In this document: positions 33,431 through 39,497 of the stretch, piece by piece
Layout of the letters: the number at the start of each line of letters is the position of its first letter
How positions within the stretch are numbered: position 1 is the stretch's first letter
DNA from: an uncultured Chloroflexota bacterium
Lineage (GTDB): Bacteria; Chloroflexota; Anaerolineae; Aggregatilineales; Phototrophicaceae
DNA: 47,000 nt
Assembly (NCBI GenBank): GCA_903864435.1
Contig: CAIPFY010000241.1
Span: forward strand, 1-47,000
Direction: 5' to 3'
Notes under the pieces: generated by a model
Told to the model about the DNA's origin: nothing
What the model saw: only the letters and a program-made list of their open reading frames with translations
Databases searched by the model: none
Position numbers and translations under genes: made by a program

Positions 33431-34531
33431 TTAGCAGCCCTCACGCTCCGCCAGTACGCAGCGCAAATGCTCAATCGTGCCGCGATAATCAGCGGTAAAA
33501 CGCGGGACAAACGCGGTCGCAATCGCGTTGTTCACGGCAATATCGGCGTCGGTGTGCGCCTGATTCGCTTTGCCAGTCAACAGTTCTTTGTACTCAATCG
33601 CGTTAAGCGCCTTCACCGGATTGCCCAGCACAACCTGAAGCACCGCGCTGATGGTCGCGTGTTCCACCTGATTATCGTTGCCCGGATCGCCCACATAGCG
33701 GTGCGCGAAACCGGATACGCCCCAGATTTCGCCCAACCAGATATTCTCGCCCATCCGGTAGCGCCACATGCTCGTGATATTGAAGCGGTTGAAAATGCTG
33801 TGCGAGATCACGCTTGCGCCCGTCAGGGGGTTGGTGCGGCTGGTGCTGAACATCACCTGTTGCCAGATCAGCACCAGCGCCTTGCCGTATTCGGCACGCC
33901 CCTTCGCATCATCGGGCGATTCCCCCGCCACCTTCTCGTAGTAATCCACGACCATCTGAAAAATATCAAACTCGGCATCCAGCGCCGTATCCTGTTCTTC
34001 GCCAGCCTGATGAAACGCCACTAGACGGTTATACGCCCGCGCCAGCAACGACAGGTACGGCTCGGAGTCGGGCTGTACAATTGCATCCGCGATAGCATAT
34101 TCCCGCAAGCCGTGCGTCCGCATATCGGTACTCTGCACGTCCCAGAACGTGACCGGAATCGGGTCGCCATAAGCGGCGGCCAACTCCGTCAGCTTCACCA
34201 GATTAGCCGCGTAACGGCGCACCGCATCCGGGCTAACCGCTCCCGCCCGCAGGCGTTCCAAATGTTCCGCCACGCCGGTACTCAGCAGATAATCGCCCTC
34301 CGGCAATCCCGCCGCCCGCAGCAAATCGCCAATCTCGGCAATTTCGGCCTCGGTGACGCTGCCCTCGAAAGGAGTAGCCGTCGGGAATGCGCCCAGTTGG
34401 ATGCTGTAGCTTTTCATGGCGGTTTGCAGCAGCGGCAGCCCGACCACCAACCCGACGATCACCAGCAAACCGAGAACACCTACTACAACAATCCAAAGTC
34501 GGCGGCGCGGCTGCGGAGAATGGCTGGACAT
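33431..34531 (-). CDS. Single-pass membrane protein of unknown function
   Basis: A 366-residue protein with a short basic N-terminus and one membrane helix at about 12-34 (LWIVVVGVLGLLVIVGLVVGLPLL). A short linker precedes a mostly helical, Trp/Tyr-containing extracytoplasmic domain (about 60-366). Recognisable blocks include TFWDVQSTDMRTHGLREYAIADAI, LIWQQVMFSTSRTNPLTG and EIWGVSGFAHRYVGDPGNDNQVEH. I see no family motif or catalytic signature. Its C-terminus has two Cys (CVLAEREGC) that could form a disulphide. It lies between mreB and the F1 ATP synthase genes on the same strand, after a hairpin, so it is probably separately transcribed. The steady codon use and long frame support a real gene. 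Confidence 0.75.
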   Translation of the reverse strand: MSSHSPQPRRRLWIVVVGVLGLLVIVGLVVGLPLLQTAMKSYSIQLGAFPTATPFEGSVTEAEIAEIGDLLRAAGLPEGDYLLSTGVAEHLERLRAGAVSPDAVRRYAANLVKLTELAAAYGDPIPVTFWDVQSTDMRTHGLREYAIADAIVQPDSEPYLSLLARAYNRLVAFHQAGEEQDTALDAEFDIFQMVVDYYEKVAGESPDDAKGRAEYGKALVLIWQQVMFSTSRTNPLTGASVISHSIFNRFNITSMWRYRMGENIWLGEIWGVSGFAHRYVGDPGNDNQVEHATISAVLQVVLGNPVKALNAIEYKELLTGKANQAHTDADIAVNNAIATAFVPRFTADYRGTIEHLRCVLAEREGC

Positions 34532-34662: not shown

Positions 34663-35115
34663 CTAGTCCTCGCTCTCGTCTTCCACGATACGCAGGATGG
34701 AAGGCCCACGCGCCTTCATCTTCATTTTGACCTTCAGCGCCAGTTCGGCATGACGCAGCGCCAGCGCCGCCTGACGGTTTTCCGTCTCCGGCACGCCATC
34801 GCGCATCATCTGCACCGCCCGCTGCCGCGCTTCTTCAATCTTGGTTTCGTCCAGATCAAACGAGGACTCTGCCAGATCAGCCAGCGCAACCACTTTATCC
34901 GGGCGCACATCCACCACGCCGCCGTAAATCACAAAACGTTCCTCGCGGTTGCCCTTGCGAACGACCAGTTCACCAAACCCCATCGTCGTCAGCACGGGCG
35001 CATGATGCGGCAGAACGCCCATTTCACCTTCGGCGCCCGGCACCATCACCATGTCCGCTTCGTGCTCCTGAAAGACGAGGCGCTCTTGCGTTACGATCTC
35101 TACATGAATGGGCAT
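34663..35115 (-). CDS. atpC: ATP synthase F1 epsilon subunit
   Basis: A 150-residue subunit of the rotor stalk. The N-terminal beta-sandwich has MPIHVEIVTQERLVF, GAEGEMGVLPHHAPVLTTM and GGVVDVRPDKVVALADLAE, and a C-terminal two-helix region follows (about 90-135). The extreme C-terminus adds an acidic tail (RIVEDESED) beyond the usual length of about 135. ATG 35115 has GGAGG 6 bases upstream. It follows atpD after 112 bases that contain a hairpin. Confidence 0.95.
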   Translation of the reverse strand: MPIHVEIVTQERLVFQEHEADMVMVPGAEGEMGVLPHHAPVLTTMGFGELVVRKGNREERFVIYGGVVDVRPDKVVALADLAESSFDLDETKIEEARQRAVQMMRDGVPETENRQAALALRHAELALKVKMKMKARGPSILRIVEDESED

Positions 35116-35185
35116 TTCTTGCCTCCTCCACAGCGATTCAACGATGAAAACCGCTGTTCCTCGTCACCAATGAAACTTCTTATAA

Positions 35186-35212
35186 CCCCCTCACCGCTGC
35201 GCGACAAGGGGG
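35186..35212 (-). promoter_or_regulatory. Hairpin in the atpD-atpC gap (possible attenuator)
   Basis: CCCCCT (35186-35191) and AGGGGG (35207-35212) can pair around a 15-base loop, 16 bases after the atpD stop. It may lower epsilon expression relative to beta, or stabilise the upstream mRNA. This is weak evidence. Confidence 0.3.
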
Positions 35213-35227
35213 CAAACGGGGCGAGGC

Positions 35228-36643
<1,416 letters not shown>

Positions 36644-36651
36644 TCACGCTC

Positions 36652-37932
36652 TCAGGCTTTGCGCCCGGCGGTCAATTGATCTTGTAAACGCTCCAAACCG
36701 TCCCAATCGCCAGCGGCAGCCAGTGCCGCCTGCTCAGGCCAACTCGGCAGCGCAGGTGCTAAACGCATCCCCGCCGCTTCAATCGCCTTTAACAACGCTG
36801 CCTCGTCCGACGCCGCCAGTTTCACGTAGGTATCAATCCCCGCCGCTACCAGTGCAGCAGACATCTTGGGGCCAATGCCTTCGATCACCGTCAAGTCGTC
36901 GCCGCTGCCGCCCTTCAGTGAAACGCGCCCGCCCGCCTTCGCCACCACCGGCGGAGACATCATCGCGTGTGCGCCATTCCCATTTTGTGGCTGGCTGGCG
37001 AGAATTTCGTCGGCCAGACCTTCGATAGAGGCTTGCAGCGCCTCGGCGCCGCCCACGATGTCCAGAATTTCGGCAGTGATGGCCGCCTGACGGGCTTTGT
37101 TGTAAACCAGCGTCAGATCGCCCATGAGCTGCGTCGCGTTGTCCGAAGCATTACGCATCGCCACCATACGCGCCGAATGCTCACTGGCTTGGCTTTCCAG
37201 CAGCGCCTGATAAATCTGGAGTTCGGTGAAGCGTGGCACGATTTCATCCAGAATGGCCGCCGCGTCTGGCTCATAGTCGTAGTCCGACTTGCCAGCACTC
37301 ACCGCAGGCACATCCTTAACCATCTCAGCCATCACCTGATCGTCCGTCGAATACGGAACCAGAGGCAACCACCCCAACACCACCGGGCGCTGGGTGAGCG
37401 TATTCACGAAATCGGTGTAGGCGATGAACACTTGATCCACCGTCCCCGCCAAAAATTCGTCAATCGCCAACCGTGCCACCGGCGAAATGCTGGCAATGGT
37501 CGGGTCAGCAGGCAGGCCGCTGAACTCCGCCACCACATTCTTGCCACCGCGAATGAACGAGTCGCGGGCTTTCTTACCAACGGTCACAAAGCGCGTCGGC
37601 TTGCCCATGCGGTGCGCAAAACGCTCCGCCACACGAATGATGTTCGTGTTATAAGCGCCAGCCAACCCACGATCCGAAGTCAGCACCACCACCATGATGT
37701 TCTTGATCTCATCACGGCTTGCCAGCAGCGGATGCAGCGGTAGCCCTTTGGTAGCTGTACTCTGCACATTCAACAGAATTTCCCACGCTTTTTCAGCGAA
37801 AGCGCGGCTGGCTAATACGCGAGCCTGCGCCTTACGCACACGCGACGCGGAAACCGCTTCGAGAGCGCGGGTAATCTGCGAAATATTCTTGACACTGCGA
37901 ATACGTTTCTTGATGTCGCGTGCTGTAGCCAT
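36652..37932 (-). CDS. atpG: ATP synthase F1 gamma subunit with C-terminal helix-hairpin-helix extension
   Basis: A 426-residue protein against about 285-300 for a normal gamma. Residues 1-300 are an ordinary gamma: the N-terminal coiled-coil helix ATARDIKKRIRSVKNISQITRALEAVSASR, Rossmann-like middle, and the C-terminal helix with ARMVAMRNASDNA and YNKARQAAITAEILDIVGGAEAL. A flexible Gly/Ala/Pro linker (about 301-345) leads to a module at 346-426: LTVIEGIGPKMSAALVAAGI, a hairpin motif, and PSWPEQAALAAAGDWDGLERLQ. Such modules occur alone or in membrane proteins of Chloroflexota and other phyla, as I recall. The frame is continuous with no stop or shift. ATG 37932 has AAGGAG 6 bases upstream. 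It lies between atpA and atpD. Confidence 0.95.
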   Translation of the reverse strand: MATARDIKKRIRSVKNISQITRALEAVSASRVRKAQARVLASRAFAEKAWEILLNVQSTATKGLPLHPLLASRDEIKNIMVVVLTSDRGLAGAYNTNIIRVAERFAHRMGKPTRFVTVGKKARDSFIRGGKNVVAEFSGLPADPTIASISPVARLAIDEFLAGTVDQVFIAYTDFVNTLTQRPVVLGWLPLVPYSTDDQVMAEMVKDVPAVSAGKSDYDYEPDAAAILDEIVPRFTELQIYQALLESQASEHSARMVAMRNASDNATQLMGDLTLVYNKARQAAITAEILDIVGGAEALQASIEGLADEILASQPQNGNGAHAMMSPPVVAKAGGRVSLKGGSGDDLTVIEGIGPKMSAALVAAGIDTYVKLAASDEAALLKAIEAAGMRLAPALPSWPEQAALAAAGDWDGLERLQDQLTAGRKA

Positions 37933-37991
37933 TCAATACTCCTTGTTACACCCCCGCCCCACCGCACACGGCAGAACAGGAGGATGAGATA

Positions 37992-39497
37992 TTAGCTCCA
38001 GCTCGCATTGAACGATTGCAGCGCATTCTTCAATTTGGCTTCCTGCTCATCGTTCAGCGTCTTGGTTTCCGCGATGCTGTTGGCAACATCGGAGAATTGC
38101 GTATTGAACGCACGCACGAACGCGGCCTGCCATTCCTTAACACGATCCACCGGCACATTGTCCAGATGACCCTTCGTACCGGCGTAAATGAGCGCCACCT
38201 GATCCGCCAGCGGGATCGGCTGGTACTGCGGTTGCTTCAACAGTTCGGTCAGGCGCAAACCACGATCCAACTGCTGCTGGGTGGACTTGTCCAGATCGGA
38301 GCCGAACTGGGCGAATGCCGCCAGTGAACGGAACTGCGCAAGGTCGAGGCGCAAGCCGCCGGCCACTTTCTTCATGGCCTTCGTCTGCGCGTCACCACCC
38401 ACGCGGCTCACGCTGATACCGACGTTCATCGCGGGGCGCGTGCCGGCGTAGAACAATTCCGGTTCGAGGTAAATCTGACCATCCGTGATCGAAATAACAT
38501 TGGTAGGCACATAAGCCGACACGTCACCTAGCAGCGTTTCGATGACGGGGAGCGCCGTCAAGCTGCCCCCACCACGCGATTCGCTCAACTGCGCGGCGCG
38601 TTCCAGCAAACGGCTGTGGAGATAGAACACGTCGCCGGGATACGCTTCACGCCCCGGAGGACGGCGCATCAGCAGCGACACCTGACGGTACGCCCACGCA
38701 TGTTTGGACAGGTCATCGTAAACGACCAGCGCGTGCTTGCCGTTTTCCATGAACCATTCGCCAATCGCGCAACCCGCGTAGGGGGCGATGTAGTTCATCG
38801 CGGCGGGGTCAGACGCAGAGGCCACGACAACGGTGGTATATTCCATCGCGCCGTATTCTTCGAGCAGAGCCACCAGACGCGCCACTTCGCCACGACGCTT
38901 GCCGATGGCGACGTAAATGCAGTACAGGTCTTTGCCCTTCTGGTTCAGGATGGTGTCAATGGCAATCGCGGTCTTGCCGGTCTGACGGTCGCCGATGATG
39001 AGTTCACGCTGACCACGACCAATCGGGGTCATCGCGTCAATGGCGATCACGCCGGTCTGAACCGGGCTGAACACGTTCTTACGTTCGATAACACCGGGGG
39101 CGATCCGTTCAACGTTGAAGTAGTCCGAAGCGACAATACTGCCCTTGCCGTCCACCGGATTACCCAGCGCATCCACGACGCGCCCAATCATGCCCGTCCC
39201 AACCGGGATCGAGGCGATACGTCCCAGTGGGCGCACTTCGTCGCCTTCCTGAATCGTATCATATTCGCCCAGAATGATGACACCGACATTATCTTTTTCA
39301 AGATTGAACGCGATGCCGGGCGTGCCATTGTTAAAGCGAACCAACTCGCTAAAACGGATATTTTCCAGTCCAGCAACGCGAGCGATACCATCGCCGATTT
39401 CCATCACGCGACCGACCTCGACCGCTTCGATGGTGGGCGAGAAACTCTCGACCTGCTCTAACAATGACTTAAAGATATCGTGGGAGATCTCTGCCAT
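37992..39497 (-). CDS. atpA: ATP synthase F1 alpha subunit
   Basis: A 501-residue nucleotide-binding, non-catalytic subunit of the alpha3-beta3 ring. It has the N-terminal delta-contact region, a beta barrel ([20 protein letters not shown]), P-loop GDRQTGKT and the arginine finger region [16 protein letters not shown] 39497 has AGGAGG 5 bases upstream. It is the first F1 gene here; the usual atpB, atpE, atpF and atpH upstream are replaced by a 200-base gap and proC, so the Fo and delta genes must be elsewhere. Confidence 0.98.

Follow-up and report, generated by a model that had tools for sequence, protein, structure and literature searches.

The 47,000-nucleotide stretch analysed here (the window; positions 1 to 47,000 of contig CAIPFY010000241.1, from an uncultured Chloroflexota bacterium of the family Phototrophicaceae) carries a gene for the gamma subunit of the F1 ATP synthase that continues well beyond the usual end of gamma. 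It is encoded together with the alpha, beta and epsilon subunits, the four genes spanning 34663-39497 as judged by Pfam, and is the only PF00231 match in the window's genome, a 464-contig assembly. Its product is a full-length gamma by two independent profiles, PF00231 (304.7 bits, cut-off 39.9) and TIGR01146 (304.6 bits, cut-off 194.45). An earlier note, made from the letters alone, had proposed that gamma ends normally near residue 300 and is fused on a flexible tether to a helix-hairpin-helix (HhH) module. Both proposals were borne out by the uninterrupted 426-residue frame, by the PF00231 match, which covers residues 4-299, and by an AlphaFold2 model.

In the AlphaFold2 model of the full-length protein, run with 61 relatives, most of the gamma core was confidently predicted and its last helix ran unbroken from residue 224 to 313, whereas residues 318-328 and 330-341 had predicted local distance difference test (pLDDT) values below 50 and the module blocks between 351 and 420 reached 91-97. 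A search at E 1e-10 gave 48 solved gamma sequences, none of which has its best-scoring stretch extending past residue 302 (for two chloroplast chains, a second stretch was not displayed). Since residues 300-313 continue the C-terminal helix of gamma, the 45-residue Gly/Ala/Pro linker of the earlier note is better divided into a helix extension of about 14 residues and a disordered linker of about 31; its composition, over 38 fused gene rows as cut in our script, is led by Ala (25%), Pro (13%) and Lys (11%), followed by Gly (8%) and Ser. The module of 81 residues described there was recovered at about 82 residues, with the I-E-G-I-G-P-K and W-P-E-Q-A-A-L-A-A-A-G-D-W-D motifs as given. HHH_5 (PF14520) matched residues 346-382 with 27.7 bits from the last 119 residues alone (E 3.9e-6) and 23.8 bits from the whole protein, against a cut-off of 27. 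Modelled alone with 60 module sequences, the module formed five helices (pLDDT 90.6, predicted template modelling score 0.81), and its E-G-I-G-P-K hairpin is invariant or almost so. Most modules are acidic: 54 of 60 have a net negative charge, one is neutral and five are positive (median isoelectric point 4.9). Taken together, a single open frame, in which the module is under selection as described below, encodes a gamma predicted to have a C-terminal helix a few turns longer than those of solved F1 gammas, a flexible tether and an independently folded acidic module.

Table 1. Features of the fused gamma gene and its neighbours in the window.
Feature	Position	Strand	Basis
Fused gamma gene, whole frame	36652-37932	minus	open without stop, 426 aa (translation)
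F1 ATP synthase gamma core, residues 1-299	37036..37932	minus	PF00231 residues 4-299, E 1.1e-90; TIGR01146 above cut-off
Gamma C-terminal helix extension (predicted), residues 300-313	36994..37035	minus	AlphaFold2 helix 224-313; comparison with 48 solved gamma sequences
Disordered linker (predicted), residues 314-344	36901..36993	minus	pLDDT <50 over 318-328 and 330-341; Ala/Pro/Lys-rich, poorly conserved
Dual HhH module, residues 345-426	36655..36900	minus	HHH_5; five predicted helices; purifying selection in fused genes
Fused gamma stop codon	36652..36654	minus	translation
F1 alpha subunit, upstream of gamma on the same strand	37992..39497	minus	PF00006, PF02874, PF00306
F1 beta subunit, downstream of gamma	35228..36628	minus	PF00006, PF02874
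F1 epsilon subunit	34663..35115	minus	PF02823

The fusion is real. A gamma match was found in 91 of the 98 genomes of the window's family (G011 and G016 are among those without one), and in 29 of these the module was counted in the same frame, 27 by the range of the match and two (G009 and G355) from the gene sequence as read. Gamma matches come from 23 genera, and the fused genomes from 11 of these; in the genus of the window's genome, ten of the 15 genomes with a gamma match are fused and five are without the module on gamma. Within these counts, the status of G059 is taken from the match range and its module frame, and G347 is truncated at its start; among the genomes not counted as fused, 62 in all, are one with only a 115-residue piece (G346) and many judged by match range and frame length. 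Reading the gamma loci themselves (89 of 93, leaving out L153, L157, L172 and L196) gave 78 distinct sequences, 28 fused and 50 unfused, the duplicates including genes taken from two collections. On a wider scale, a class-level sample of 298 genomes, 247 with a gamma match, contained seven tail-covering matches among the matches listed, all from the window's family; the list was cut at 1e-33 and shortened at its weaker end, and long-linker fusions, such as that of G009, are split into two matches, so that some may be missed. When genome contigs were scanned with the gamma tail, 13 of the best 80 of 108 loci were gamma fusions by reading of the frames.

The possibility that a sequencing or assembly error had joined two genes, to which the fragmented assembly of the window's genome lends some colour, has a practically negligible probability, and split genes can likewise be set aside, because 29 of the 91 family genomes share the fusion, and one of these (G358) is listed as a single contig. 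The loss of a gamma stop through such an error, which the earlier note had asked to be checked, is refuted by this recurrence, also seen in 28 of the 78 distinct sequences. Nor was a separate module gene, its other concern, found in relatives: none, nor any remnant of a module, lies within the next 426-600 bases on the downstream side of any of the 51 unfused gamma rows, where the sole tblastn match covered 12 residues at E 8.6.

The module is constrained as a protein, more weakly than the gamma core, while the linker drifts. The ratio of nonsynonymous to synonymous substitution rates (dN/dS) of the module was 0.03-0.20 in the nine of 11 fused-gene pairs for which it was computable, and the five pairs with a module dS below 1 cover the same range; the corresponding values were 0.02-0.08 for the core (11 of 11 pairs) and 0.24-1.21 for the linker (8 of 11), and the module was less constrained than the core in all nine pairs. 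Independence cannot be claimed for the four pairs among L006, L007 and L008, nor for those around L003. A tree of 78 gamma cores, 28 of them fused, was built quickly, with branch support from the Shimodaira-Hasegawa-like approximate likelihood ratio test only; in it, the fused state is limited to the family and relatives are repeatedly without the module on gamma, requiring at least 13 changes of state, six of them forced by starred branches. The genus has five unfused species, and in all of them except G003 gamma has a linker-like end. In a module tree of 83 columns for 101 rows, the gamma modules are intermixed with those of membrane proteins; a single clade of gamma modules was neither demonstrated nor rejected (p 0.394), and the data are compatible with one capture as with several. 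One genome (G012; bin contamination 8%) has both a fused and an unfused gamma; its second gamma and the gamma of G014 are sisters in the tree.

Modules of the same family occur on other proteins. One further copy was found in the window's genome, at the C-terminus of the ribosomal protein bL20 (L131:1059-1799, G000:C266; 41% identity), where it is attached through an Ala/Pro/Lys linker. At least ten of the 17 genomes of the genus carry it on bL20, two by Pfam and eight by motif, in a count limited to the second modules that were retrieved from the genus. Hosts confirmed by Pfam are bL27 (L033), bL20 (L113, L131), bS16 (L089), bL17 (L093) and the glycogen branching enzyme GlgB (L140). A simple hydropathy rule placed a hydrophobic segment before the module in 81 of 101 non-gamma frames, many of which have two, as in protein-O, described below; these frames were found through their likeness to the gamma tail and are not a census, some genes were retrieved twice, and starts were set by rule. 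A Saprospiraceae frame (L097:1407-4919) contains six modules in tandem and a hydrophobic segment near its start.

Among known systems, one of the closest is protein-O of the reaction centre-light-harvesting 1 (RC-LH1) complex of the purple bacterium Dinoroseobacter shibae (PDB 8YY9 chain O), whose C-terminal domain is homologous to the module (E 4.5e-12 over 72 residues with module profile A1; a single gamma-tail sequence gave 0.013 only). According to PMC12079452, this domain hangs from a long flexible loop of a protein that belongs to an energy-converting complex, and it is not visible in the map; the paper also describes NuoE, an 'ATP synthase subunit E' and an endonuclease as having similar C-termini, and calls the functions of such domains obscure. 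The two cases share this arrangement but differ in the carrier, which is a two-helix membrane protein inside RC-LH1 there and gamma, a rotor subunit, here. In its predicted structure, the module has a dual HhH fold that modestly resembles the NusA acidic repeats, such as AR2 (PDB 6ib8 chain C), which likewise lies at the C-terminus of a larger protein (PMC6614801); the gamma module has an extra C-terminal helix and other hosts, and no sequence relation is evident. Regions of RadA, polymerase iota/IV and polymerase theta are also among its nearest folds. Homology to NusA or RadA was considered and rejected, the fold similarity being modest only and the RadA profile match weak. The gamma tail alone weakly matched the C-terminal parts of the NCBIfam models for ribosomal L21 (NF008916, 4.6e-6), S2 (NF008966, 0.012) and NuoE (NF009040, 5.2e-4), which describe other host proteins and whose whole-protein cut-offs lie far above these scores, and that of the phasin PhaH model. 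It matched DUF4332 (PF14229) at 1.8e-4, below the family cut-off of 23.2 bits (22.1 for the tail, 19.6 for the whole protein). A literature search, with most subscription papers outside its coverage, found PMC12079452 as the sole paper on the module family, none on a gamma-HhH fusion and none on a Chloroflexota b-delta stator.

Such a stator bears on what the module could touch. In the window's genome the delta family PF00213 was matched only once, by its C-terminal part (87-171), within a 301-residue protein that starts with subunit b (L205:841-1743, G000:C283). This genome yielded no N-terminal domain of delta, the part normally seated on the crown; a diverged domain or a gene missing from the assemblies could also give this result. 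Among 41 relatives, 38 have a delta match, which in 37 begins only at profile position 66 or later (the exception being G028, 14-172), and in the readable frames of relatives (198-347 residues or shorter) the part before the delta C-terminal domain looks like b, although it was tested with Pfam only in the window's genome. By sequence, delta in this order seems to be reduced to its C-terminal domain fused to b, without the usual crown contact. The earlier note had placed the gamma C-terminus near delta and had suggested that the module could contact it; the former is doubtful here and the latter is weakened, because the delta N-terminal domain was not found. The apparent lack of this domain may explain why a tail on gamma is tolerated. 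We rejected the idea that the gamma module replaces it, since unfused relatives also show only the delta C-terminal domain. By eye, the b part of the fused stator protein (L205:841-1050) begins with a hydrophobic, signal-like segment and continues with an acidic stretch rich in Ala before it reaches the usual membrane helix. A second gamma-like match, far diverged at 23-24% identity, was seen in four relatives (G013:C480, G038:C520, G033:C21 and G020:C226); for the first three of these, the same contig also has a second delta match nearby, perhaps belonging to an alternate F1Fo ATPase. In the window itself, a 366-residue frame (33431-34531, minus strand) right after epsilon has no Pfam match below E 0.16 and looks membrane-anchored by eye.

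Given its other hosts, the module appears to be a docking handle of general use, not one made for the ATP synthase in particular. The reading that we consider most likely, tentatively and at a little under even chances, is that the gamma module is a handle resembling the NusA acidic repeats, which docks a protein partner common to the sister modules and so tethers or recruits F1 or unassembled gamma. The tether would let the module exit the top of the alpha3-beta3 crown, which here seemingly has no canonical delta N-terminal domain; once outside, the module would bind the partner that it has in common with its sisters on proteins of the ribosome and on those anchored in the membrane. Because a single-chain tether can swivel, such docking need not halt rotation.

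The chief rival, which we regard as unlikely, is that the hairpins bind the backbone of DNA or RNA and keep F1 or unassembled gamma near the nucleoid or the ribosomes. HhH motifs often bind DNA, the hairpin is almost invariant, RadA and polymerase regions are among the nearest folds and several hosts are ribosomal proteins, but the predominantly acidic character of the modules argues against nucleic-acid binding. A handle for assembly or quality control, serving free gamma through chaperone binding or solubility and having no role in finished F1, would account both for the choice of single subunits of large complexes as hosts (gamma, bL20, bL27, bL17 and bS16) and for the frequent absence of the module; the many hosts with a membrane segment are not obviously subunits of large complexes, however, and we consider this explanation quite unlikely.

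The earlier note had also raised a brake. As such a brake or regulator of the rotor, the module would bend back onto the crown or the stator and reduce the rate of ATP hydrolysis. The epsilon C-terminal domain, the mycobacterial alpha extension, zeta and IF1 inhibit hydrolysis through contacts with rotor and stator, and a tether that begins past the end of the axle helix and a module under purifying selection would suit such a device. Beyond this geometry, the brake is without support: nothing specific to gamma was seen in a family that also occurs on ribosomal, glycogen and membrane proteins, the delta N-terminal domain that would form part of the contact was not found, and most of the family genomes in which gamma was matched (62 of 91), among them five of 15 in the genus itself, were not counted as fused. 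Because the sister modules sit on ribosomal proteins, GlgB and mostly membrane-anchored proteins, we favour a swappable handle for docking over a brake specific to gamma, which we rate as improbable. The module might finally be a passenger, spreading to the 3' ends of conserved genes and functionless on gamma, as the repeated changes of state on the gamma tree, the many unrelated hosts and the weaker constraint relative to the core would allow; the low dN/dS in all computable pairs and a single origin of the gamma modules that was not rejected make this very improbable.

Returning to the docking handle, a wider speculation can be attached to it, to which we give slim chances. Within single cells, the rotor tip, the large ribosomal subunit (through bL20, or in other cases bL27 or bL17) and, for most relatives, membrane-anchored proteins would share one module, and homotypic docking or docking to a common partner would physically cluster energy supply and translation; in this lineage, loss of the delta N-terminal cap would have exposed the top of F1 and permitted tagging of the rotor itself.

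Gamma ends at the buried tip of the axle, and a folded domain tethered there must thread out of the crown and live with rotation; no such tail is present in the best-scoring stretch of any of the solved gamma sequences found. The finding also points to a stator with a seemingly reduced, b-fused delta in this order. The sister modules on ribosomal, RC-LH1 and membrane proteins make concrete a neglected question, namely what appended hairpin domains bind, and the partner of one module, once found, would inform the others.
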